From Neelides folsomi (taxonomy: Eukaryota > Arthropoda > Collembola > Neelipleona > Neelidae): a stretch of DNA of 64,000 bases. Location: positions 1 through 64,000 of the forward strand of contig JAQGBZ010000272.1 in assembly GCA_034687125.1 (NCBI GenBank), written 5' to 3'. A model generated the notes under the pieces. It ran no database searches, had not been told where the DNA came from, and saw nothing but the letters and a program-made list of their open reading frames with translations. Position numbers and translations under genes: made by a program. Below, piece after piece: positions 13,101-63,357 of this stretch (positions are counted from its first letter, which is position 1; each line of letters opens with the position of its first letter).

Positions 13101-14670
13101 GTCGAAAAATCCGAGCAAGCCGCACTTCAACCACTATTTATTCGAAAGTCTCAGCCTTTCAGTCAAGATTTCTTGCAAGGCCAATGTCCAATACGTTTCT
13201 GAATTCGAAAAGGCATTTTTCCCAATCTTTCAGCAAATTCTGTTCGCTGATGTGACTGGTTAGAATTAGCAATATTTTCTAAATGTCTATCATAAAACAA
13301 TATTTCGATAAAACATTAAAATAATGATAATTTTCTTATTTCAGAATTTATACCTTACGTATTTCAAATTTTGTCTCTTCTCCTTGAATTTCATTCAACG
13401 GGAATACCTGAACCATACATTGCCTTATTCCCTTGTCTTTTGGCTCCTCCACTTTGGGAACGTCCTGGAAATATTCATCCACTCGTCCGCCTTATTCAAT
13501 CTTTCATTGCCCGAGGTCCTGAGCAAATCCCTATAGACAAATTGGTAAAAAAGATAAACGAATAAGAAAAATCAAATTATTTAAGTAATTATTTAAATAT
13601 TTAAAAAAATCTTTCCAATTATTAAAGAACGCAATTCTTGGAGTATTTCAAAAGTTGATCGCCTCAAAGATGAATGACCATGAAGGATTTTATCTTGTTT
13701 CAAGCCTTATTGAACACATACCAGAGTAAGTTTTTTTATCTTGTTATTACTATATACTTAAAATTACCCATTAATTAAATTCATATGCTTACATATTTAA
13801 TTATTATAAAAAGTATGTAAATTAATTATGTATTCGTTATCAATAATATAAAAATTCTGACGTTGAAATTTTATTAAATAGCAAACTAATGGCCGAATAC
13901 ATCAAACAAATCTTTCTCGTGTTGTTCCAACGTTTGACTTCTTCAAAGACTACAAAATATATCAAAAGTCTTCTCGTATTCTTTGGGCTTTACACAGTAA
14001 AATATGGAGCTGCATCTTTTGTCCAAATTGTCGATTCCATTCAAGCAAAGATGTTCGCAATGGTTCTTGACCGACTTTTCATTTCTGAACTTCAAAAAGT
14101 GAGTGGGACGAATGAAAAAAAGCTTTGTGCAGTTGGAATTACCAAAATTCTTTGTGACATCCCTGAATACACCTTGTTGGGTGATTATGTGCCTTACTGG
14201 TAACTAATTTTTGATTAAATAAATGAAATTGATTTTTATTAATTTATGCGAAAACTTGAGATTTACTTTATTTTTGAAATTAGGCCTCCGTTGCTTCAAG
14301 CCTTAATTGGTCTCTTTGAACTTCCTGAAGACGAGACCATTCCAGAAAACGAGCACTTCATTGAAATTGAGGACACTCCTGGATATCAAACGGCATATTC
14401 TCAACTCGTTTTTGCTGGGAAAGCTGAAATCGATCCTCTGAAAGGTAGACTTTTAAAATTAATGATTCTAAATTGCATTAAATGGAATCACAATTTTAAT
14501 ATGAAATAGGAGCTGTGCCGGATCCTAAAGTCTTCTTGGCCCAAAGCCTTGGAAAGTTGTCAATTGGCCATCCTGGAAAAGTTCAGCCGTTGATTGCATC
14601 TGCCGTTGCACCCGAAGCTCAAAATTTCTTAAACAAGTACCTCGTGACAGCGAATGTCCAACTGAATTAA
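10125..14670 (+). CDS. CSE1L: Exportin-2 (importin-alpha re-exporter, CAS)
   Basis: HEAT-repeat karyopherin that returns importin-alpha to the cytoplasm in complex with RanGTP. Eighteen exons: 10125-10209, 10333-10478, 10618-10816, 10873-11018, 11098-11205, 11273-11365, 11481-11648, 11748-11877, 11973-12136, 12253-12442, 12527-12725, 12805-12908, 13010-13258, 13345-13544, 13628-13725, 13882-14199, 14284-14444 and 14510-14670. The spliced frame is 2919 nt, 972 residues, against 971 in human. Near-identical family blocks are visible: FKNFVKRNWKI, GDFHVINGVLRTAHSIFKRY, FKSNELW, HFxxIEDTPGYQTAYSQLVFAGK, KMFAMVLDR and FLAQSLGKLS. The N-terminal importin-beta-like domain covers roughly residues 1-370 and the CAS/CSE C-terminal domain roughly 520-960. 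Introns are mostly 55-150 bp. An AATAAA lies at 15074-15079. No frameshift or missing segment was seen. Confidence 0.97.
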
Positions 14671-15268: not shown

Positions 15269-18200
15269 ATGGCGCTCCGGGCGGCTCGGTTCCTCCTCTA
15301 CTCCGCGAAAAAATCCCCGAAAAGTCCTTTAATCCATGGGGCAAATACGGTAACGACCTTTAAATATAGTCCTTAATTAATGAGTGTTCAAATATATTTT
15401 AATGGTTTAGGAAAAATGATCTTGTTATGGGAGAATCATCTGTTAAGCAGATTCTGTTTTAATGGCTAAAGTTATGTAATTGATTTAATTTTAGAGTCGT
15501 CACCTGAGTTTGGGATGTCCGGTTTTATCGACTGGGTTGCAATATAATAAGGCTCTTTTAAATACTCCACCTACTCGAGTGACGACGATCGATAATGGAA
15601 TCCGAGTAGCCACTGAAGACTCGGGCGGTTTAACAGCCACAGTTGGGATTTGGATTGATGCTGGTTCTCGGTATGAAAATGACGAGAACAACGGAGTGGC
15701 CCATTTCCTCGAACACATGGCTTTTAAGGTAAAACCAGAAGCTAAGATCATCTGAATCTGATTATACAATACTTACTTAATTGTATTAAAATTTAATTTA
15801 AATAAATGGATTTTTAGGGAACGAAAAAAAGGACACAGGCTGATTTAGAAAAAGAGATTGAAAATATGGGAGGACACTTAAACGCTTATACATCACGAGA
15901 ACAAACAGTTTATTACGCCAAGTGTCTTTCAACCGACATTGAACACGCATTAGAAATATTGTCGGATATTCTTCAGAATTCTAAGTAATAATCTCATTCA
16001 ATTCTTTGCCTTTATTTTACTTATAAAACATGATCGATATTTTATTTAATTAGAGATATAACAAGAAGAATTATAAAGATTAGCCTGTTATTGTTACGTT
16101 AATTGTACAATTGTAATTTTGCCATTACATTCATTTTCATTAGCATTTAACATCAAACTATGTATAAATTAATTCATTTGTTTAGGTTTGAAGAGTCCCA
16201 AATGGAAAGAGAGCGAAGCGTGATTCTTCGAGAGATGCAAGAAGTCGAAACCAATCTCCAGGAAGTTGTGTTTGATCACCTTCATGCAACAGCTTACCAG
16301 GTAATATTCTACAAAATATTTCATAAATACCAAAAATAAAATTATTTTACATTTTTACAACTGAGGTTTTTATAATTTTTATAATGTATTTTATTTACCA
16401 ATATTATTTATACCTTATTTAGTTGATCAATCTATTGAATCAATCTATTTGAATCAAAAACTAAACAGTGTAAATCTGTAAAATGAATGAAAATGGAAGA
16501 TAATAATTTTAACCTTGTCCTAAATAGGGAACTCCACTTGGGCGTACTATTTTGGGCCCAACCGAAAACATCCAAAACATGAAAAGAGAACAGTTATCCG
16601 AGTATGTCGACACTCATTACAAAGGACCGAGGATGGTTGTAGCCGGAGCCGGAGGAGTCCCCCATGATGCATTAGTCAAATTCACGCAAAAACACTTCGG
16701 ATCAATTCGAGTCGATTATGCAAATACGGAGATTCCCAGTTTACCACAAAAGTGTCGGTTTACAGGATCGGATCTCCGAGTTCGAGATGACTCGCTTCCT
16801 TTAGCCCATGTCGCAATGGCTGTTGAAGGATGCGGATGGAAGGATCCAGACAACATCCCACTCATGGTTGCTAACACAATCATTGGGAGTTGGGACCGGT
16901 CTCAGGTTACTTATTAAAATATTCAGCACCAATACCCATTTCCCATTATTCAATGAAAATCCCCTTATGTATTGTCACTTCCCAACGCTACCATTAAGTA
17001 GGCATAACATGATGTTAGTTGTTTCTTATCGTTTTTGGCTATTTAAATTCAGTTTATTGATCTTACTCGCATATTCCCCAATTTAATATCAAATATTTCT
17101 TTGATCTGCTCGGATAAAGCCTCTTCGGCTAACTATACCGAATAGTTAGAGACTGAGCGGAAAATAAATAGTCGACATCGGAGGGCTTGTTCCACTGTTG
17201 AGAATGAGTACTAGTTTTTACTTGTCGACACATTTAGAAAAAACAAAAAAACTGTAGGATTTATTCTACATATTAATCTATAAATACGTATTAAATACCA
17301 AACAGACAATTAAATGTTATGCTATACTAACATTAAGTAGGTATAAATATTTATTTTGAAAATCATTGATTTGAAAACAAATCATAGGTAGTTATTATTA
17401 GCCCAATTTCTACAATCATTTCCGATTTATTTATGCCATTCAATAGTGAGTTAATGGAATTGTGGTGGATAATTGATGATTTATTGTAGGTGGGGGGCTC
17501 AGTGAGTGGATCCAATTTGGCTGAAGCTGCTTCGAAGATGGGCTTTGCTCATGGCTTCCAAGCCTTTAATACATGCTATAAGGATACTGGCCTCTGGGGC
17601 GTGTATTTCATTTCCGATCCTCTCACCATCGAGGTACTTTATTATAAATCATAATTGAAATGAATTTTGCCCAGATTTCAATTCACCAACCTATATGTAT
17701 TATTATGTATATGATTGCAGAACTTTGTCTTCAACGTTCAACACGAATGGATGCGTCTCTGCACTAATGTTACTGAATCGGAAGTTGAACGGGCCAAGAA
17801 CACATTGAGGACGAACATGCTTTTGCAACTCGATGGAACGACTCCAACCTGTGAGGACATTGGAAGACAGATGCTTTGCTATGACCGTCGAGTCCCGCTC
17901 AATGAACTCGAAGCCAGAATCGATGTAAGGAATAATTCAGGATTATTTTTTAACATTAAACACACTATTATTTAATAATTCAATGATATTTATACATAGG
18001 TAATATGTATTATATATTTTATGGTTAAAATTTAATGTGTTTAATAACTTTTTTAATAGCATTTTTATATTTCGTTTAATTTTTAATCTAATTTAATGTG
18101 AGTTAATGAACTGAATATATTTTTTAATGTTTAGGCATTGAGAATAATATATTTCATTTTCTGTTCTTTTTGTAATTTTCAGGCCGTGGACGCGAAGATG

Positions 18201-19098: not shown

Positions 19099-19598
19099 TT
19101 ATGAGTAGTCGAACGACTCGAACCGCTGTGGATACTCTGAGCATTCTGAGTATTCTGGATATTTAAGATCTTCATCACGTTGGTCGCAGCAGCAGCATCC
19201 CATGAGTGATATTAAAAGGCTGATTACCGTGATCATCGTGGCTGCAAAATACACGACCCATCTATAATGTATTAATTATCATAAGGTGATTAAAAATATT
19301 TAAATTGAAGATTATATAGTAAATGGCTAAAGGTTAACAAACTAAAAATGTAATTCACACAATTGACTAAATAGCGTAATAAATATAATAATTGGTTGGT
19401 GTTAAATTCATACACTGTATTATCTTGACTGCATCCGGAGCAATTTGTATGCGTCAGATTTCCTTCTTGGTATGGGCTCTGGCTTGTAACGTTCCTGGAG
19501 AGCTTGTCGCTTTTATTATATGGAAGCTGCCCACTCACAACTTCCAGAATCAACAAGTAGATCATGGTGAGAAGGAAAAACGACGCGAATAAAATCAT
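19099..19598 (-). CDS. Small single-pass membrane protein, paralogue A
   Basis: Two exons, 19414-19598 and 19099-19261, joined in phase 2 (donor GT/GTATGA, acceptor TTATAG), encode 115 residues. Visible layout: a hydrophobic signal peptide at residues 1-23 (ending VVSG); a 40-residue polar segment with four N-glycosylation sequons (NKS, NVT, NLT, NCS) and two cysteines; a transmembrane helix at about 63-83 starting right at the intron; a juxtamembrane GCCCCD cysteine cluster that could be palmitoylated; and a short acidic, Tyr/Ser-rich tail (EYSECSEYPQ, then FESFDYS at the end). This predicts a type I surface or secretory-pathway protein. I do not recognise a named family. The gene at 24.3-24.8 kb has the same architecture and intron phase, which supports both models. 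An open-frame scan misses exon 2, which contains the membrane helix. Confidence 0.7.
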
Positions 19599-20673
19599 TC
19601 AATAGAGAATCCGCACAACGATGGAACTCAACTTTTGATATTTATCTTTCTCTTTTGGTAAGATGTGGAGATTTTAGACTTTTATATTATTTGGATTGTG
19701 TGTGATATATTCAATATTTTTGAGATTTACTTTCAGATGTGGCCACAAATAAAAACTTGATAAAAACTATATAACTTTATAACTACAACTTTAACGGACT
19801 TGTTATATGTTTTATTAGCTGAAATGTATTTTACATATATAGGTTAAATGAGGGATAAAATGATTCACAAATTCAATGTTGGTTTGAGTGTGTAAATATT
19901 TAAATCAATTTTTGGATAAAGTAATTAGCTATATCAATAGAAATGGTATATTTGAAAGTCAATATGGTGGAACTTTCACTTGGATGAGATTCATTTCCAC
20001 GAATTTAAGGAGTTGTGTATTTATATAATACTTGTGTATTTATATGAGTATTTACATATATGGTATATTTATACTATTTACGATGCACTATACAGATACA
20101 CTAGTTAAATATATCCATTCATAAATCTTACCAAAGAGTAATTATAGAGTCATTTAAATTCACATTTATCTTGTTACGCAATTACGCAAATGGAAACTGT
20201 GAAACTGTGGTTTAGATATTTTTGCCCAACTGGTTGTTTTTATGGTTTGTTGGTAAATAACTCGAGATTGGTTTCACTTCTTGTGGAGATAAAAGTGAAA
20301 TAACGTTTTCCTCCTATTTATGAATATTTGCTTAAGAGGCAATTGGAACCTCTCGTTAATCCTTTAAGGTGAAGAAAGGGATTGGGAGGGGATTGAGCTT
20401 TGTCTACTTTTAGAATTAAGATCTTGATTTATTTTGACTAAAGTTATTGTTTTCCTTCCCGCTGTTTCCCGATTCGGATCTTGAGATAAAACTCAGTTGC
20501 CTTTCTTCATCACACGCAGAGAGTTTTACCTATTTCTTTAAAGGTTAAAAGGAAGGAGGAAATCCATGTGCTTTCCTCGCTCTTACGAGGACCTGACTGA
20601 GACTGAGCTGGGGAAAACACCAAAACCCCCCCAAAACACGTCCGGAGTGAAAAGAGAGGATAGGAGGAGGAAA

Positions 20674-20730
20674 TATATAAATATATCCCTTCTTTCTATA
20701 CACATCCTTTCGATCATTCCGAATCAGTCC
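20674..20730 (+). promoter_or_regulatory. Candidate TATA promoter of unknown target
   Basis: TATATAAAT at 20674-20682 follows a purine-rich tract. Downstream are TCATTCC (A at about 20715) and TCAGTCC (20724-20730), both fitting the arthropod initiator TCAKTY. The spacing to the better initiator (about 50 bp) is longer than the usual 30, and no plus-strand gene was found downstream, so this is only suggestive. Confidence 0.2.
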
Positions 20731-22752
20731 GAATCTCATCCGAAATGATCAGGATACACACGAGTACTCAACCGTTACTAGACGCTTTAAACAAATATCA
20801 ACTCAAGGGAGAATAATAGAAATAGATGATAGACATGTAAGGAGAAAGTAAATAACAATTATAAATAGTAGACCAATTTACTTACTTTTAATATTATAAA
20901 TAAATATCAACATTATTATATCAATATAATTCAATCTATTTTAATTTTGTATAAATGCATAATATTTATTTTTGTATCAAAATGACTTTTATTAGTAATA
21001 TTCAATTACCAATATGTAATGTATTTGGTATTCGGATTGTAATTTACCTTATTATATAAGATTCCGACTTGATTGGTTCTCTAAATTTAGACAATTCTCA
21101 TCACAATGGTTCGGCCTGGTTAAGTCATTAAATTGAATAAATAGAAAGTTCTTCAGTTTCGTTCTTCAAAACCATTTAATGGCATTGTAAGGTAATAGAT
21201 TAATAAAGTACGTCAGCAATCAACTTGAAGTTTACAACTTCCTTTCGCTCCTTTATACAAATTCAAGTTTACATCATTTCTCCATCCCTTATTTGTTCCA
21301 TTGTTCATATACATTTATAAGTAAAGTAGGTGACGTATCAAATGTTGGAAAAGCCATAACATAATTAAATGCTCTGTCAAAGGGCAGAAAGAGCAAGGAA
21401 CTGCCATATGTTATTATACAGATATATTTACAAAAGGGTAAGAACTGATATGAACAAATACACATGCAAATAACATACAAATAAGACCCAAATACTTTAC
21501 TAATACATGTTGGTAATGTATTAGATACATAAATACCATTCCCGTCCTCTTGTATCCGTCAGTGAGGGAGAGAATAAAGGGTTCATTAAAAAGGGAATTA
21601 GAAACTCATTTTGTTCGCGTCCTCGGGGCGGGGAATCCTCGAGGTCGGGTAATGATGAAATCCCTCATCGGCTCTTCGTAGAGCTCTCGACGGGGAACCG
21701 AGGAAATTCAAACGATGCTTTCACTCCTTTTCCGTACACAAAAGCTTAATTAATTCCGAGAAACGCCTCAAACTCCTCGACATGCTTCATCCCATGTGTG
21801 TTTAGCAGAGTCTCTTTGATTCGTCCTTCTATTATTCGTGGACCTTTTCCATATTTTTTCATATCGGCGGTGTTCGGGAAAAGCTCTGGAATCAAATTAC
21901 ACTTTGTCTAGAAAAATTCTTCCACGGTGCTCGAATGTCTTTATTAATAACTCTCTTTTCTTTTCACCATATTTCTCCATATAAAACATGGTGGCGGATC
22001 TTTTTATTTTTTTTAGACCAAAGTTTATTACTAATACACAGGAAGGAAGAATGAAAAAATGTTGAGATACTTTCAACTCCAACAAAATATTTTTTTCCCA
22101 TTGATTTGACTATCTCACTTGCAATCTGGAAGTTGGATACATTGAGAGATCACGCCTTTGAAAAGTTTTGGAAGAAAGGAAATTGAACTAAGGATCTTTA
22201 GGATGTGACATGTCCTTATACCTGGTATTTTTGGAGAAAAGAAAGGTGAACTTTAAGAATTGTTCTTTTTCTTCTAAAAGGAAGTTGGGATGAAAGGAAG
22301 CGAAGAATTATAATAAATAAATTGGTCCGGAGAGGTTTGATTTGATTTTCCCCCATTTGGAACGGAGGGTGAAAGATCGGGAGTCTCAAAGGCGTCTTTA
22401 GGCGACATTTTATTTTTCCAATTTTTTTCATTTATTACTTTCCCCTTCAGCTACTCAATTCACATTGGAATTGGGAGAAATGCCTTTTGGGTAATAAAGT
22501 AATAATGCAATTTGTAAATGGATGGGGCTCTCTTCCCAATTTTCTCATCCAAATGAAATGAGGTGAAAGTCAAAAAGAGTAATATATTATCATGGAATAA
22601 CCATCATTGATATACCCTGCTTATTATGCTATACCTTAATTAACCTTAAATGTGGAGCAGACCTCGTAATAAAGTATACATATAAGTAAGTGAACGATAA
22701 TATCTACATGATAATATCACACCTTATTATGTAAGTATTATCTGTAGATACT

Positions 22753-22803
22753 TACGTATGTTAATAATGTTAACTTATGTTAACATTGTTATTAACATAT
22801 GTA
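22753..22803. repeat. Long imperfect hairpin
   Basis: Arms of 22 and 25 nt (left 22753-22774, right 22779-22803) pair with one mismatch and a 3-nt bulge around a TTAT loop. The arms contain repeated GTTAAC/TTAATAA words. It lies in a very AT-rich stretch with further small TATATA-type palindromes up to about 22.9 kb. It could be a miniature TIR element remnant; no flanking duplication is clear. Confidence 0.5.
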
Positions 22804-23152
22804 TGTATTTGCTATATAGCTATATTACATAAATATTAGTACAATACTTATGCCTATGTACCATGATACTTATGATACTTAGGTATATGTACCCATACCC
22901 ATTTATGTATGTGTAACTGAACCTTGTTTTATTATGAAATAACTGTAATAAGTATGCATGAAGGAACTTTCAAACTCCCTACATTAAATAATTCTCCCTC
23001 CATACCCAATTTCCACAGAAGGTATTGTAGATAAATTGACGTTGAGTTTGAGTGAAAAAGCTATTAAAAGTTATTTAACTACGTATTATTATGTATAATT
23101 AAGCAACAATTTGTGCAGTTAAAGTATAAACGTTATTAAAATACAGAGTGGG

Positions 23153-23208
23153 CCATAAGTTGTTTTCTTTGTATACATTGTTTATTTAACAAAGAAAGCA
23201 ACTTATGG
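23153..23208. repeat. 20-bp-arm hairpin (MITE-like)
   Basis: Left arm CCATAAGTTG + TTTTCTTTGT and right arm at 23189-23208 pair over 20 nt with one G-T type mismatch, separated by a 16-nt AT loop. The flanking CAGAGTGGGCC at the left resembles the CAGxGTGGGCCATAA start seen in many Tc1/mariner termini. It lies 27 bp from the larger TIR element. Confidence 0.55.
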
Positions 23209-23234
23209 TACAGATACTTAAAAATATATAAAGT

Positions 23235-23799
23235 GGGTCATCGATTGCATTCGGAACACTTTTGATATCTTATTAAATTTACTTCTTATTATGGAAATAT
23301 TTACAGACAAATGGCCATTTTTTCACTAAATACCATCTATTCAATAAAATTAAATTCCTACTTTGGTTAAAATATCATGGGAAAGATATTTAATTCCAAA
23401 TTAGATGGAATGGTATAGGCGTTTTTAATTTTGAATATCTTATAGTGAATAATCCAAGTTAAAGTTAAAGAGTTTGGCCAAGATATTGAATAATTGACAA
23501 TTACGATAATGAGAAAGCAAATTAGATCAAGAAAATATGGTAAAATATGCCACCAATAGTGCAAACTCCTAGAAATGTTAACGAAAATGTCAGGAAGGAG
23601 AAACTTTTACCTCCATGTTTAAATGGAGTATTCTTAAAACTCCAGAAAATTTTTGATCTGTTGATAGAGAAAGTGTCCAACGTGTCTATTATGCACTGGG
23701 AAGAAGGCTTAACCATATTTACATGTATACAGAAAATAAAAATTAGATTAACAACAGAAAACTTAAATAAAGTAATGTTCCGAATGCACTCGATGACCC
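23235..23799. mobile_element. 565-bp element with 24-bp terminal inverted repeats
   Basis: The ends GGGTCATCGA(T/G)TGCATTCGGAACA (left 23235-23258, right reverse complement 23776-23799) match at 23 of 24 positions. This is far beyond chance and defines a small DNA-transposon-like element. The interior carries overlapping open frames on both strands (plus-strand 23547-23804, minus-strand 23522-23842) but no recognisable DDE motif, so it is probably non-autonomous or decayed. No clear target-site duplication was identified. It belongs to an unassigned family. Confidence 0.65.
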
Positions 23800-24286
23800 T
23801 GTAGTTAACAAGTTCGATATTGAGGATATGTATGGATGCCAATTTAACACTTGCTATGAATATGTGGAGTGGATAAGTTCTTTACAGAAATGATCCCATA
23901 AACTCAAATATAACAAAAGTTACATAAAATGAGATATGAAAATGATGATTTATGTAATTCATAAACGAAATGGATTTTTGCCCAAGATGGAGAGATAGTA
24001 AATGCATTATGTAAGCCGGAGAAATTATTGACTGTGTTAAATTAATTCACAACCAACACAGTGGCCATTAAACGATTATAAAATGAAGACTGAAGATCTC
24101 TGTCATTAGAGATTTTGCAGAGTTCATGCATAAAACATAATGAACTTAATGACACTTAATGTCTCTTGCTGACATGAGGGAACGTGTGAAAATAATAAAT
24201 GTAAGCTGTCGTTTTGAGGAACTACTTTACACAAAAGGGTTTTTAATTGCTTCATTAATTTTCATTGTATGAGATTCATTTATTCA

Positions 24287-24837
24287 TTAGATGAAGGGTT
24301 TCTCAGGATTGAAGTCACAATCAAAATCATTAGACCAATCACAAGAGCAGCCAATAACGCTGATGAGAAAACTCAGAAATATCACGATCCCAGCTGTAGT
24401 ATAAATAACAACACTAGAAAAATACAAACAATTAAATATTTTTAAACTTTGCAAGTTAATGATAAATATTTATTGTTAAATAGGATTTAATTAAATATTA
24501 TTGAATTGTATTTACAAACATAAAACAAGACAAAAATATTTGATTTAAATTTATTATAAGATTTTTAACAATATTTGTGTATTATTTATTATTTTTATAT
24601 ATTTAAGAGAATAATTTATAATAGAATTTATATTTGATAAAAAATTTATCAAAAGTTAACGTAAGAAATTACTAACTCGTTTTCATCTGGCTGAACAATT
24701 TTAACCATTTTTCCTTGTTGGAAATTGTTAAGGTCGAGAGTTGGAGGAGTTGTGGATTTTGCCAAATCGATGTTTTGAGGCCCCTGACTTGCGAATAAAG
24801 CTCGGCAGAACAGCAACAAGTACAAAATGATCCACAT
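24287..24837 (-). CDS. Small single-pass membrane protein, paralogue B
   Basis: Two exons, 24677-24837 and 24287-24413, joined in phase 2 (donor GA/GTTAGT, acceptor TTCTAG), encode 95 residues. The signal peptide covers residues 1-17 (MWIILYLLLFCRALFAS). A 36-residue polar ectodomain without N-glycosylation sequons or cysteines follows. The transmembrane helix at about 55-76 again starts at the exon junction, and the sequence just inside is IGCSCD, equivalent to MGCCCCD in the paralogue at 19.1-19.6 kb. The tail is short and acidic (DFDCDFNPEKPFI). Shared intron phase, helix position and the V-[VI]-Y-x(5)-I-x(2)-[IF]-[IL]-S-[LF]-L-I-S-[LV]-[MI]-G-C pattern argue for common descent by local duplication. 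The extracellular parts have diverged completely. Function unknown. Confidence 0.68.
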
Positions 24838-26204: not shown

Positions 26205-27202
26205 CAAAGTGATTCTTTTGTGTCGAGAAAGATAGAAATATGTATTAATCATAGGAAAACTTTTAAGAAAAATCATTCGAATTTATAGAAGATGCTCGAA
26301 ATGTCCTCCATTCTGTTTCAGGCATAATTCCACTCTTTGTAGATTGTTGAGTACATTGAGTAACATCTCTGGAGTTATCAAATCCACAACAGCTTGGATG
26401 CTTTGCTGTAATTCAGCAATTGTATGCAAATTGTTCGCATAGCAGTTATTCTTGATATGAGCAAAAAGAAATGAATCTGGTGGAGTTTAAATCGGGGGAT
26501 CTTGTTGGAAAAGAAATTATCCCTCCTGGGAATTCTTTCCAGGAAGTTCATGGTTGCTGCAGATTTGTGGCATGGAGCATTGTCTTGCTGAAACAACGTA
26601 TGGATAACGGAAGCAAGAGGCAAGTCGTGGTTTAAAAACCATTCACAAAACTCAATTCTTCGTGGATGATTAATTGGGAGCAACTATTGACACATGGATT
26701 TTATATGGTTTCAATTTAAGATCATACTTTAAAATCCTTTGTGCAGATGAATACGACATCCCGCTTTGAGATGACAGCCTTCGTATTGACTTCCATGGAC
26801 TAATGTCCATGGCCGCTTTGACGCTGGCGATCGATCGAAGTTTTCAAACTATTGACATTTCCTGTCAACTTAAATTTATTGTATATCCGATACACTGATG
26901 CTATCCCTATTTGGGGAAATCTTCTCTGAAACTCAATTGTGCGACTAATGCTCTTTGTTGAAATATAATTTTCAACAATGAAAACTTTTTGATTTAGAGA
27001 AAATTTGTAGGAAGCCATAATTAAATTTATTATGAAATATAAAAGCAGCAAAACGTATGTATTTTGCCATGTTCATCATTTAGAATTGGAGCAACAACAT
27101 TTTGAGCATATTCTATAAATCTGTGTAATTAATCTTATAAGTTTTCCTATGATCAATACATTAGACGTATTTCTATCTTTCTCAATACAAAAGATCACTT
27201 TG
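26205..27202 (-). mobile_element. Mariner-class transposon, internally deleted
   Basis: A roughly 1-kb element with TA target duplications at 26203-26204 and 27203-27204 and long (about 95 bp) inverted repeats beginning CAAAGTGAT. The repeats share AGAAAGATAGAAATA and ATCATAGGAAAACTT on both sides. It encodes a broken transposase on the minus strand (separate entry). It sits inside the 26010-27519 element, so it inserted later. Confidence 0.8.
26283..27018 (-). pseudogene. Mariner transposase remnant
   Basis: The reading begins MASYKFSLNQKVFIVENY (start about 27018), a helix-turn-helix with the RIYNKFKLTGNV turn. After a frameshift it continues as a second helix-turn-helix (SSAQRILKYDLKLKPYKI), then LLPINHPRRIEFCEWFLN, then jumps directly to FQQDNAPCHKSAATMNFL, which holds the second catalytic Asp. 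After another frame change it ends in the typical NGGHFEHLL at 26283. The stretch with the first catalytic Asp is missing (roughly 90-100 residues), and there are at least two frame disruptions and a stop. The copy is therefore inactive. The full-length family has about 340 codons; this one spans about 245. Confidence 0.8.
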
Positions 27203-49850: not shown

Positions 49851-52586
49851 ATGAGTCAACAGCCAATTGGTGCCTATCGAACAAAAGATGAAGAAACGAA
49901 TGATGATGATGCCAACATCCCAAAGGAAATTATTTGGAGGAACGTAATCGTCCTTGCCTTTATCCATCTATTCGCCATTGGCGGATGCATCCGGATCCTC
50001 ACATGGAATTTCATGTGGTTGAGTATATTATGGTGTAAGGATTCCAATTCATTTTACTATTAAAAAAACTAGACTTGAACATTAATTGTACAATAGTAGT
50101 CTAATTGTATCTGTATCTATATGTAATGTACAATACTCTACTGTACAACAGTTGAACATTATTGTATTTAACTACAGTTACAATATTGTACCATTATTTT
50201 ACATTATTATGCATGTTCAATATGCATTTCTATTTACGTATACTTTTTAAGTAGTTTGAACCATATTATGAATTTTTAATTTGAGCGTGGACTCGTAATA
50301 ATTTGTGTCTGTTGGGAAATTTAATTGATCTTGACTTGAATGTTTTTGGAAGGTGCTATCTACACATTCATTACTGGTTTGGGGATCACGGCAGGAGCCC
50401 ATAGGTACTGGTGCCACAGGACGTTTAAGGCAAAGTTTCCCCTTCAAGTTCTTCTCTTGGTAATGCAATCGGCGAGTCTCCAAGTGAGTCGAACGAGGAA
50501 GGAATCTCGTTCCTCATTTCAAACCTTCTAACCTTCTCCCAATTCCATTGAGTCTGCCAGTAGACCAATCTACAAGGGATGATGATGAGGAACGAGAGTT
50601 TCCACGATGACCTAATAATACATATTTTTTGAGAGAGGGGGGTCAGGTGTTCAACGCAACTGAGCACTCTTTTTTGTTTTTTTGTCCCTTGGACTTAGAC
50701 GCCGATCTACGTGTGGTGCCGAGATCATCGTGTTCACCACAAGTTCTCCGAGACCAACGCCGACCCACATAATGCGAAACGAGGATTCTTCTTCTCTCAC
50801 ATTGGATGGCTCTTTTACCGGAAGCACGAGGCGGTGAAGATGAAAGGGAAAATACTCGACTTTTCAGATTTGACCTCTGACCCTCTTGTCATGTTCCAGC
50901 AAAAGTATTACATCCGAACATTAATCTTACAGTTTACAATTATACCGGGTTATAATTTTCCTCTTTTCCTCCACTTTCCTCTTAAACTACAAAAATGTGA
51001 ACAATTCCTATAACCAATATTTAATGATAATGAGATTGTTGAAACATGTAACATGCATTCAGCACATGTTTGTATATGTAAAAGCATGACTAACTCGATT
51101 TACCAATTTGCTCTAATTTTCTTATATTTGCTTCAATTTGCACATTTTATTTTAAGTGTTTAAGAGAATTGGGAAAAGGACTAATCTTTGAAATAATGAC
51201 TTAAATATGGAAACAAAGGTCCATTAACTTAAGCTATAATATAGCTATAATACTTAATTTATAAGCTAGTAGTATATCTTAATTTTTTAAACCTCAATAT
51301 TCATGTTTATTCTTAAAAGGAAGCGTGTTTTGTGTTCTATCTGTATACTGAATACAGTATTCTGTATATAGGTGAGATTTGTTTTCCTCTGTGAGACATC
51401 TTAATTTATGAATGAATGCCCCAATAGAGAAATTGGTTTGGACGTTGAACGAGTGAGCTAATAAGCACACTCACTTGGCTTTCCTAAACCACCTTTACAA
51501 TTGCAAATTATAATACAATGGCCCTTTATTCTCCTTTACTCTTTTTGTGTGTAATAATGCGTGAGTGATTAATATGTATTATGAGACTGCGAAATGGACC
51601 TAATGAACCCGTATATGCAACTAGTATAGATATTACTTTATTACATATAAATAATGTATGCAATGAATATTTAATAAATTCATGAATTTGTTGATGTCCC
51701 AATAGATACTACACACCATGGATCGTTAGTATTTTCTTCGTCATTCCCATCATCATCCCGATTTATTGTTGGGGATGTTCATTCTGGGAATCTTTTTTCC
51801 TCAATCAACTCCGCTACTGTTGGTCATTACATGGGACTTGGGCCGTCAACAGCGTTGCTCACATGTTTGGACATAGACCTTATGATAAGTATGTAATGTA
51901 CCTGTAATTTAAATGCTGCTTTGATTATCAGTTTATACTGCTTTTATATTGGGAGATCACAGTAGTGTAAAACTCATAAAACACTTCAACTTTTATGCGC
52001 AAAACATTTTCAGCTTTTTCCTCAACTTTTGTTTATGATCCGCCTTTAATTGCGGCTCAACTCTCAAAGGTAATGATCTACTTAAATTTTATACAAAATA
52101 ATAAAACTAAAACTAAACCTTTGTAAACTCTATTAAATTATCCTTTACAACGGCTTTCTTTCCCATTTGAAGCTATTACAATAGTAGTACGAATTGGTTG
52201 CTATTAAATCATTTTAACTACGAGGAATTTCTCAATCAACTTTATGTTTTAATTTTAGTAACATCAATCCCAGAGAGAACATGTTCGTATCATTTTTCTC
52301 AATGGGTGAAGGATGGCACAATTTTCATCATGTCTTCCCTTGGGACTACAAAGCCTCCGAATTCGGATTCCTCAACGTTTCCAAAATGTTCATTGAATTT
52401 TTTGGGAAGATAGGGTGGGCCTATGACCTGAAGTCAGTTCCTGATGACGTCGTTCGCAAGCGAGTGGATAGAACTGGTTCACTCACCGCCCATGCACCTC
52501 CTGAGCAGGGCCATTGGGGTTGGGGTGACAAAGAGATTCCGCTGGAAAATGCACAAATGACCCAAATTTTATACAAGCTCAAGTAA
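49851..52586 (+). CDS. Δ9 acyl-CoA desaturase (SCD-like), copy 1
   Basis: ER membrane di-iron enzyme that introduces a cis double bond, normally at C9 of palmitoyl/stearoyl-CoA. Five exons: 49851-50034, 50353-50483, 50699-50904, 51706-51888 and 52259-52586 (phase 1, 0, 2, 2), 343 residues. The three histidine boxes are intact: HRYWCH (78-83), HRVHH (115-119) and HNFHH (255-259); WAVNSVAHMFG supplies the additional family His. The transmembrane pairs are visible around residues 31-72 and 175-205. The C-terminus contains HWGWGDKEIP, also present in copy 2. First in-frame ATG used. AATAAA at 53031-53036 gives a 3' UTR of about 450 nt. Regiospecificity is predicted from the family only. Confidence 0.95.
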
Positions 52587-54123
52587 TTTGGAATTCCATT
52601 TCTCGAATGGGGATCTAAACGTGTTTACTACACCCAATGAACAGACTCCTCCTCACCCTCTGTCTACCTCATTTACATTTCAGGATGAAGATCTCTGGCG
52701 AAATACTCCCAACCTTAAATTCCTATATATTTTTACAATACCATTCATACCTACCATATAAGATAATATTGTATATCAATTCTGTACACTATTTCTATCT
52801 TTTACTCTTTGGTCATTTCTCAAAAGGAACAATTAATGTAGTGTTATTGAACCTTATGTATTTCTATATGAGATGAATATTTGTACCATATATTGTATTT
52901 ACCATTAGTATAGTATGAAGATGTGTATGTGTTAGATGTTACATTGATCTTATGAATATTTATGTTATTACTCTTGTTATAACTCTGATATTATTTTTAT
53001 ACTCATTCATTAATGTCAATGCTTAATTAAAATAAAATGTAAAATTTAGTTGGATGGGTTCATTGCACGTTTTTATCTTATTGTTAAGATTTGATATACA
53101 CATGCATACATGCAGTATTAAGACTTCTTACATGTACAATATATTACTTTGTATAGGTTTAGAAAAAAATGCGCAATATCAATGGCTATGAACCCATCAA
53201 ACATTCCTACCTTTTTTGTATGTTTGAACTGATTAGTGAACTGTGAGGTTTTTGAATAAAATGAGATTTAAGTGAATTTAACTGCATAAAAATATAGCGA
53301 CTGAATCCAGTTGTAAAGTGAATGATGCGAGGAATGGGGAGGAGAATTTTTTCTCAATGGAAGATTCTCGTTCTGCGAGGTCCGATTAGTAAATACATGT
53401 TTCTTCCCCTTTAACATTTCGGGTCAAGGGGGAGTTAACCCCAATAGGGTTTGTAGGTCATGTGAGGGCGATGGAGCCGGGGCGGGTGCGGGTGAATTTG
53501 AGAATTTTAAAAGAAAGACAAGGGTTGGCCGGAGTGGGTATATCCACCAGCCTACCTCACCTGGACGATTAGCCTGTATAATTACCAGTATTACCTGTAT
53601 TATTGGCAACAATGACAACCTGTTTTACCCTTAAGGTAACGAGGAGAGTTGTTGGTCAGTTAGTTAGTAGGCTCCCCAAACCTCGTCCGGCCGAGGGGTT
53701 GCTTGTAGAGTCAACAATGTCTTTCGTTTCGACACGTAGGCCTAGATTGAATGCATTGGTTGGTCATATACTCTCGAGACTGGCTGTTAGTCGGTTGGAC
53801 TCTCTGTGATGACCGACCTATTTAAGTTCACCTCACTTTCTTTTCTCTTTTGGTTCCTTGGTTAGTTGGTGGGGAAGCGGCTGGCGAGCATCTCACGATT
53901 GACCCCAGAGTCTCGAGAGGCTCTCTCAGTCGCAGGCAGTGCGGATTGCCGCCTCAGAGGACGGCCACACCAATTCCTTCACCCCCGCTCTCCACCAGTC
54001 ATGTCTTCCAAGGCTCAGGAACGGACCCCTTTGCTATAAATATACTCACCGAGAGACCCCTTCGAGTGTCGTGCCCTTCGTGCATTCAACCCTGTGCTTC
54101 GGAACGCCGCTCAACACCCCAAC
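52587..54123. promoter_or_regulatory. Desaturase 1 3' region and ELOVL6 promoter
   Basis: 52.59-53.04 kb is the desaturase 3' UTR, ending near AATAAA 53031-53036. 53.64-54.12 kb is distinctly GC-richer and lacks a supported exon. It contains TATTTAAG near 53819, TCACCTCAC near 53829 (resembles a sterol-response element core), TCTCAGTCG near 53925 (initiator-like), and TATAAATA at 54035-54042, 82 bp before the ELOVL start codon. I take this as the elongase promoter and 5' UTR. Confidence 0.5.
54035..54042 (+). promoter_or_regulatory. TATA box of the ELOVL6-type gene
   Basis: TATAAATA in a GC-rich context, followed about 30 bp later by a pyrimidine-rich region and then the start codon at 54124. 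This is the best-placed core promoter motif in the window. Confidence 0.5.
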
Positions 54124-55668
54124 ATGGTCTTCCTCAACATCACACAGACGTTCTACGACGAAGATGTCGTGCTCACCGAGGCCCCGTACACGACCTCCTT
54201 CGAGTTCGAGAAGTTTGACCTCAACGGGGCGAGGGCTTTCATGAAGCAGCATGCCCACATTTCCCTATACGCCTCCATCGTCTACATCGTCCTCATCTTC
54301 TCGGGACAGGTATGGATGAAAAATCGGGCACCGTTTCATCTCCGCAGTCCCCTTGCTGTGTGGAACGTCCTTCTCGCCATCTTCTCCGTCTTCGGACTCC
54401 TCCGCGTCTACCCCGAATTCCATTCTGTCATCTTTGGGGAAAACGGATTCCACAGGAGTCTCTGTGTCAGGTAAACACCTTCCCTTTTTACAATTAAGGA
54501 ACAATGCCCCGACTCCGCTAATGAGAATTTATTCTCACGGCTCAGCTCCAGATGAGAATTTCTCACGTCATTTCTTTAAATTCAGTTTTTTAATTCTTCC
54601 TTCTTCCTAATCAACTCCAAATGCCTGTCCTTGTTCCGAATTAATTTTTTTCTCGATTTAAGCCTTAATTTCTCTTAATTCCTCAATTCCTTAATTTCTC
54701 ATTGCTCAATTTCTCCTTTTTGTGTATAATATATTTTGTATATGAAATGATTTTAGTAGTTTTTGTAAAAGGTTAAATATTTCAGGGATGAACACAATGT
54801 AACTTCCGCATTTTGGGGCCTCATGTTCGTCCTCTCGAAAATGGTCGAGTTGGGGGACACGGTGTTCATCGTGTTGAGGAAGCAACGGCTCATCTTTCTC
54901 CACTGGTGAGAGTTTCACATTTGCTCCCATTGAGAGCCTTGCCCTTCAAAATTCCGCTTTCTAATAACTCGCCTCACAGGTATCATCACATCACAGTCCT
55001 CATGTGCTGTTGGTACTTTTATTCCGATTATGAGCCCATCTTCAGATGGTACGGGGTCATGAACTATTTCGTCCATTCGCTCATGTACTCTTACTACGCT
55101 GCCCGGGTAAAAATCCATTCCATATTATGAATTCCTCAAATGCTCAGCTTTTTAGAAATTAAAGCTAAATGACATTAAAACTAAACAGCATTAAAGCTAA
55201 ACAGCATTAAACTAAACACTATATGTAAGATGAAATTTCATTAAAATGAAATTACATTATGAAATTACATTAAAATTAAATGACATTAAATTAATGGCTT
55301 CATTATAATAATAATATTTTGTTCAGGCTCTTCAAGTCAAGATAGCTCGACCCATTGCAATGACGATCACGGCCCTCCAACTGACTCAGATGGTTGTTGG
55401 GCTGTTGGTGAACCTCTACTCATTCAAGATCCTCTGTACGTCCTCATTCTCTAGAAATTCTCCTCACACTCTTTTCTTCCCAAATTCCTATCCAAACCAT
55501 GTGTTGCTCATATATGTGATTTTTTTTGCAGACGATGGATATGACTGTGCGAGACGAGCCGACACGTTCTATACCCATATCTCAATTTGCATCTCGTACA
55601 TGGTCCTCTTCGCAAATTATTTCTACAAGGCTTACTTTGTCAACCCAAAGACGTTGAAGAAGGAGTGA
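54124..55668 (+). CDS. ELOVL6: Very-long-chain fatty acid elongase, ELOVL6 type
   Basis: ER-membrane condensing enzyme (3-ketoacyl-CoA synthase) extending saturated and monounsaturated C12-C16 acyl-CoAs. Five exons: 54124-54470, 54786-54905, 54980-55106, 55327-55435 and 55532-55668 (phase 2, 2, 0, 1), 279 residues. The catalytic histidine box HWYHH (155-159) spans the exon 2/3 junction. Other family marks: FEFEKFD near the start as in ELOVL6, [46 protein letters not shown] and a basic C-terminus KTLKKE. About seven membrane segments are visible. Codons are unusually C/G-ending in exons 1-3 relative to neighbours. AATAAA occurs at 55772-55777. ELOVL6 rather than ELOVL3 is my choice from the N-terminal motif. 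Confidence 0.95.
55150..55300. repeat. Short tandem repeat in ELOVL6 intron 3
   Basis: Degenerate copies of a unit like ACATTAAA(A/G)CTAAAC-(AG) occur in a row (three clear copies at about 55160-55215), followed by related AAATTACATTA copies to about 55285. A minisatellite in the intron with no coding effect. Confidence 0.6.
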
Positions 55669-62800: not shown

Positions 62801-63357
62801 GATATAACTCGTTTAATACAAGACATGCAAGTACACAATAAATTACTTGCATTGTACATGTTAAATATTCAATTATTATAATAATAAAATTTAATTAGAT
62901 ATAACATAATAGCTTATAAACTTATACGTAATTAAGCGCTATTAGAGATGTTTTTATTATGTAATATATTTAAGTATTTAAAAAATCATCTAATAATGTA
63001 TAAATTTTTTGTAGGACTATCAATCCATCAGAAAATCGTTTAGTTGCTCTTCTTGCTCTTGGTGAAGGTTGGCACAATTACCATCACGTATTTCCCTGGG
63101 ACTACAAGACCTCAGAATTTGGATCTATCAACTTTACAAAGCATTTTGTTGACTTTTTCGCTAAAATCGGATGGGCCTACGATCTCAAGACAGTGAGCAA
63201 CAAGAGCATTGTCGAAAGAATAGCCAAGACTGGGGATGGAACCCATGAACACTTTCACGGCGGTCCATGGGGATGGGGAGATAAAGACATCCCTGCAGAA
63301 AATATTGAAGCTACTGAATTACTTTATCCAATCCCGGAAGAATCAACCGTATCATAG
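59892..63357 (+). CDS. Δ9 acyl-CoA desaturase (SCD-like), copy 2
   Basis: Same enzyme family as copy 1. Seven exons: 59892-60084, 60801-60830, 60912-61029, 61124-61177, 61715-61849, 62211-62396 and 63015-63357 (phase 1, 2, 1, 2, 2, 2 written as codon positions carried over), 352 residues. Histidine boxes HRYWAH (81-86), HRLHH (118-122) and HNYHH (259-263), plus WLVNSAAHLYG, are all intact. Exon 2 is a 30-nt microexon encoding part of a membrane helix (AVVIFHLNGI). The C-terminus has WGWGDKDIP and a longer tail than copy 1. Three intron positions (after the first membrane helix, at K/YY and at K/xINP) are shared with copy 1; the others are specific to this copy. No canonical AATAAA was found close to the stop. 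Confidence 0.95.

Follow-up and report, generated by a model that had tools for sequence, protein, structure and literature searches.

The 64,000-nucleotide window analyzed here (positions 1 to 64,000 of contig JAQGBZ010000272.1 of the collembolan Neelides folsomi, assembly GCA_034687125.1) harbors on its minus strand two small two-exon genes built on one plan and lying 4.7 kb apart, referred to below as genes 1 and 2. Together with a third copy on another contig of the same genome (gene 3, contig C101), they very probably constitute a small duplicated family of at least three genes, as judged from sequence comparison. On balance, we lean towards the explanation that this family encodes acylated type I membrane glycoproteins of the accessory or adaptor type. 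Small, fast-diverging membrane proteins are readily overlooked by annotation and by family libraries, and the combination of a fixed membrane exon with a drifting outer exon offers a compact case in which selection and lost constraint can be set against each other as drivers of divergence.

Gene models and family relationship

Gene 1 (minus strand; exon 1 at 19414..19598, intron at 19262..19413, exon 2 at 19099..19261) yields a product of 115 residues without internal stop when spliced at a phase-2 GT-AG intron of 152 nt (GTATGA...TATAG). According to translation, hydropathy and (-3,-1) sites, exon 1 would code for a signal peptide, with candidate cleavage after residue 22 or 23, and for an ectodomain of about 39 residues carrying the motif SPYQEGNLTH and four N-glycosylation sequons, a number reached in only 0.9% of 20000 shuffles and hence above the expectation from composition. 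Exon 2, which is homologous to that of gene 3, begins at the helix (WVVYF; WVVYFAATMITVISLLISLM) and continues with the cysteine patch GCCCCD and an acidic tail with four tyrosines up to the stop. An in-frame TGA, read by eye, lies directly 5' of the start codon. Met12 at 19565 is an alternative start, and is the one given by the model scans described below because these try the shortest exon first.

Gene 2 (minus strand; exon 1 at 24677..24837, intron at 24414..24676, exon 2 at 24287..24413) is likewise interrupted by a phase-2 GT-AG intron, here of 263 nt (GTTAGT...TCTAG), and its spliced frame gives 95 residues, again without internal stop. Translation and hydropathy indicate a signal peptide (candidate cleavage LFA^SQ) and an ectodomain of about 37 residues, which contains no cysteine and, by eye, no sequon. 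Exon 2 resembles that of gene 1: it begins at the helix (VVIYT; VVIYTTAGIVIFLSFLISVI), followed by the patch GCSCD, a short acidic tail and the stop. A TGA is found by eye in frame one codon 5' of the start codon, and the stop is followed, only a few bases further on, by an AATAAA. The original prediction of two spliced minus-strand genes, with four sequons against none and with second exons that open on the helix and its GCCCCD or GCSCD motif, thus agrees with the models in each of these respects.

The further paralog that the prediction suggested looking for was found by searching the organism's own genome with gene 1, which matched C101:87140-87241 (E = 0.001, 47% identity); the reverse query with gene 3 returned gene 1 (E = 1.6e-4). 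The gene 3 model, at about 87.0-87.5 kb of C101, consists of two exons separated by a phase-2 intron of 112 nt and codes for 117 residues, with a hydrophobic N-terminus, a short ectodomain containing SSYQENKPVH as the counterpart of the gene 1 motif, and a second exon that comprises the WVVYF helix and the cysteine patch GCCYDC (WVVYFIAFMISAISIICATLGCCYDC), then an acidic tail. A phase-2 intron is therefore predicted immediately before the helix in all three models, and the strongest argument that these are genes is that gene 3, picked up by sequence similarity, agrees with the others in predicted splice junction and phase. A second candidate acceptor is present in gene 3 (L009:4761, C101), 24 nt upstream of the exon 2 start; its use would add eight in-frame residues before the helix, making alternative splicing possible.

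The relationship among the genes is carried by exon 2. In local alignments, none of 2000 shuffles scored as well as the real pair for genes 1 and 2 or for genes 1 and 3, and the helix core alone was equaled in none of 5000 shuffles in either case. The exon 2 alignment between genes 1 and 2 runs through the helix and the cysteine patch with no gap, which bears out the predicted alignment of their helices and is consistent with the two being, probably, a duplicated pair. In leave-one-out profile searches over 3592 open reading frames (ORFs), gene 1 was recovered at E 2.6e-12, gene 3 at E 1.2e-4 and gene 2 at E 0.007. From these comparisons genes 1 and 3 almost certainly belong to one family, and gene 2 probably belongs to it as well.

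The membership of gene 2 meets several difficulties. Its leave-one-out score is better than the first noise match (0.046) by a factor of only about six, and none of the genome searches with gene 1, with gene 3 or with the exon 2 consensus picked it up; conversely, a genome query with gene 2 returned neither gene 1 nor gene 3. Moreover, the exon 2 match between genes 2 and 3 (equaled by 6 of 2000 shuffles, or by 19 of 5000 for the helix core) is out of register, and this pair therefore lends little. These points, together with the fact that its exon 1 cannot be aligned, would fit a separate small gene that has the common plan of signal peptide and helix, the family then being restricted to genes 1 and 3. 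However, the gap-free match to gene 1 is not reproduced by shuffling, and gene 2 lies on the same strand as gene 1, a few kilobases away, with its intron at the same position and in the same phase; we regard an unrelated gene 2 as rather unlikely.

No additional member was detected in genome searches with the 34-residue exon 2 consensus and with gene 2 exon 2 alone, and profile scanning over 151,371 bases of the same genome yielded no fourth one; three genes is a lower bound, because gene 2 itself escapes the searches made with gene 1, gene 3 and the consensus. Two weak genome matches, at C257:47572-47862 (E 1.8) and C262:86047-86274 (E 1.5), were rejected since visual inspection of all three frames on the strand that matched revealed no helix-cysteine pattern. 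The model scan gave no two-exon model at either site; an unrelated phase-2 model lies elsewhere in L011 (C262). Comparison by blastn of the 2.5-kb regions around genes 1 and 2 and of 9.9 kb around gene 3 gave no match longer than 43 bases (range 12-43; best E 0.001). One match of 18 bases joins the exon 2 starts of genes 1 and 3. With only such short matches around the three genes, the duplication would be old.

Topology and proposed mechanism

A single-pass type I topology appears likely for all three products. In genes 1 and 2 the hydropathy profile shows a single internal helix besides a hydrophobic stretch at the N-terminus, and all three products have acceptable (-3,-1) signal-peptidase sites. 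The predicted tails measure 32, 20 and 45 residues in genes 1, 2 and 3, with 4, 0 and 1 tyrosines and, counted by eye, 2, 2 and 1 prolines; the ectodomains hold 2, 0 and 0 cysteines. In each tail acidic residues prevail, with D+E against K+R at 9 to 3 in gene 1, 5 to 1 in gene 2 and 13 to 2 in gene 3. Acidic tails on the cytosolic side are contrary to the positive-inside rule, and this speaks against the proposed orientation.

The same tails would be expected if the N-terminal segment were an uncleaved anchor and the products two-helix hairpins, with the cysteine patch in the lumen and forming disulphides instead of being acylated. The N-terminal stretch of gene 1 is indeed no less hydrophobic than its helix (mean hydropathy over 19 residues 2.44 vs 2.28). 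On the other hand, the cleavage sites noted in all three products and the sequon excess of the gene 1 ectodomain are better accommodated by a removed signal peptide, and we consider the hairpin arrangement unlikely.

Under the type I topology, the signal peptide would direct a short ectodomain to the outside of the cell, the helix would anchor the protein in the membrane, the patch cysteines on the inner side of the membrane (GCCCCD, GCSCD, GCCYDC) would be S-acylated and hold the helix in ordered membrane, and the acidic tail would lie on the cytosolic side. The helix and the cysteine patch are kept while the ectodomain and the tail drift, so that the common work would most likely take place within the plane of the membrane. 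Each product could then bind to a larger membrane protein and serve it as a small subunit of the accessory or adaptor type, while exon 1 would tune the individual copies. This mechanism, which is suggested by the conserved helix and cysteine patch, is put forward tentatively; if the products are acylated accessory subunits, the question becomes which large membrane protein is served.

Ectodomain divergence and support for the gene models

According to the original prediction, the ectodomains of genes 1 and 2 cannot be aligned with each other. This stands, since 1196 of 2000 shuffles aligned as well; it does not extend to genes 1 and 3, which share the short motif SPYQEGNLTH / SSYQENKPVH (6 of 2000 shuffles as good). 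For genes 2 and 3 the figure was 393 of 2000. Over the 23-codon helix core, genes 1 and 3 give dN 0.45 and dS 1.16 (dN/dS about 0.39), and genes 1 and 2 give dN 0.67 and dS 2.24, the latter near saturation; genes 2 and 3 are saturated. Purifying selection on the helix core is therefore likely, on an estimate that comes from few codons.

Such an uneven pattern would also be produced by the alternative favored in the original prediction, a recognition or defense family in which diversifying selection makes the ectodomains exposed to parasites, microbes or mates diverge. The failure of the gene 1 and gene 2 ectodomains to align while exon 2 does, the sequon excess of gene 1, and the occurrence of a tandem pair plus a dispersed copy are all in keeping with it. 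However, relaxed constraint yields an equal picture, an ectodomain motif is kept between genes 1 and 3, and the copy number is small (three found, as a lower bound), so that a role in recognition or defense seems improbable to us. The comparisons do not support the suggested diversifying selection, and they speak neither for nor against an antimicrobial or host-interaction role. It is similarly doubtful that these are undescribed, crustacean-restricted receptors or accessory subunits in which the anchor exon stays constant and the exon for the ectodomain undergoes fast replacement or diversification, so that changing partners are recognized.

Exon shuffling is less probable still. It would make exon 2 a membrane anchor that was copied as a module onto secreted exons of unrelated origin, always through phase-2 joins, and the position of the intron at the helix, in equal phase in all three genes, as well as the concentration of conservation in exon 2, are what it would leave behind. 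Yet genes 1 and 3 share their ectodomain motif, and the long DNA similarity expected of a recent module copy is absent; we judge this origin very unlikely.

That genes 1 and 2 are genuine was assessed by a scan of both strands. Models had to have a first exon led by ATG and hydrophobic at its start, a GT-AG intron of about 60-400 nt, and a helix at the opening of the second exon. Restricted to phase 2, the scan of the window returned two loci, which are genes 1 and 2, against one model in total in 10 first-order Markov windows. A looser version, with wider cut-offs and all phases, covered 151,371 genome bases (the window, the rest of contig C272, 49.6 kb around gene 3, and two stretches on C257 and C262) and 20 Markov windows (1.28 Mb). 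Six loci were found in the genome, namely genes 1, 2 and 3, one more phase-2 model (L011, C262) and two phase-1 models (L018, L026); the Markov windows gave eight models, three of them in phase 2 and none with the GCx(1,2)C motif, a pattern that does not match the gene 3 patch GCCYDC. The scans are supportive and not a clean test, because their cut-offs were chosen with the models already known. Codon usage is less favorable, as it does not clearly separate the exons from background ORFs: among 513 window ORFs of 40-75 residues, real exons included, the fraction scoring as high was 0.22 and 0.10 for exons 1 and 2 of gene 1, 0.04 and 0.28 for those of gene 2, and 0.75 and 0.17 for those of gene 3. 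As predictions from sequence, genes 1 and 2 look real; chance open frames in AT-rich DNA would account for the indistinct codon usage, but are highly improbable given the scans with their Markov controls and the homologous third copy with its matching splice junction.

Genomic surroundings and nearest known systems

The 3' ends of gene 1 and of a cytochrome bc1 core 1-like gene face each other (exon 16528-16917 of the latter matched; its end near 18.3 kb by eye). Upstream of gene 2, at about 1.5 kb, the minus strand carries fragments in several open frames (26283-27072) which, by eye, resemble a mariner-type transposase; two scanned pieces of this region gave no Pfam transposase match. Gene 3 has an ELO-family elongase gene at a distance of about 2 kb and adjoins an ELO elongase gene cluster (C101:67765-84938; L026, L020, L009). 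The window, too, contains an ELO elongase (54-56 kb), some 30 kb away from gene 2, within a lipid-enzyme neighborhood of desaturase-like exons and elongase (window 52218-55668 and 63004-63357; C272:68094-68492, L017). The fatty-acid desaturase-like exons lie at about 52, 63 and 68 kb; the one at 63 kb has a Pfam match at E 2.5e-4, below cut-off, and the others were recognized by eye. The position of both family loci near elongases, noticed after the fact, is a little unexpected; among the matches listed, 84 elongase matches fall on 24 of 840 contigs. Elsewhere in the window, an exon of a CSE1/exportin-2 gene is found at 13847-14203 (Pfam CAS_CSE1, E 1e-30). The mitochondrial contig of the assembly (C742; 15,157 bases, 30.9% GC) carries tRNA-Leu(taa) between cox1 and cox2 and shows by eye the ancestral pancrustacean gene order; in the ARAGORN output one gene was left unassigned and no tRNA-Asn was called. 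This order, which occurs in many pancrustaceans, places the genome within Pancrustacea, as the crustacean affinity assumed in the original prediction would require; it is retained in notostracan mitogenomes (PMC6537178).

The original prediction recognized no family, and searches of Pfam and of PDB profiles likewise gave none above chance. The Pfam matches obtained, at E 0.07-0.84 and far below their cut-offs, were taken as chance, as was the single PDB match up to E 10, the cytochrome b6-f iron-sulfur subunit (E 1.4). In viral contigs, tblastn with gene 1 and with the exon 2 alignment, genes 2 and 3 not being used whole, found no relative among 8 and 57 pattern-matched stretches, respectively. 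In the Pfam, PDB and viral-contig libraries searched, none of them a collection of animal genomes, the predicted family thus has no convincing relative and stays without assignment.

Among known systems, the zebrafish proteins Shisa-1 to 5 are described as having, near the C-terminal end of the membrane helix, cysteines that are proposed palmitoylation sites (PMC10531659); they resemble our products as small single-pass proteins with a signal peptide and cysteines at this position. Unlike Shisa, which has a cysteine-rich N-terminal domain and a proline-rich C-terminal region, the three ectodomains are nearly or wholly free of cysteine and the tails are acidic and poor in proline. Moreover, no Shisa profile occurs among the Pfam matches up to E 10, and lacking both the cysteine-rich domain and the proline-rich tail, the products were excluded from this group. 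The lymphocyte transmembrane adaptors LAT, LIME, NTAL and PAG combine a short extracellular part and one helix with palmitoylated juxtamembrane cysteines, according to PMC2803307. A short ectodomain, a single helix and juxtamembrane cysteines, putatively acylated, are likewise predicted in all three of our genes. However, the adaptors have long multi-tyrosine tails, and only gene 1 resembles them in its tail tyrosines; given the short tails and the tyrosine counts reported above, membership was ruled out here also. FXYD and KCNE auxiliary subunits are small single-pass modulators of larger membrane proteins, and the likeness, drawn from description and not from alignment, lies in size and single-pass plan; no FXYD-type motif was seen by eye, and no FXYD or KCNE profile appears among the Pfam matches up to E 10. 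By analogy with Shisa and the lymphocyte adaptors, the three products may function in the manner of small single-pass proteins of the accessory or adaptor type that are acylated, and orphan families of such a kind are common in animal genomes.

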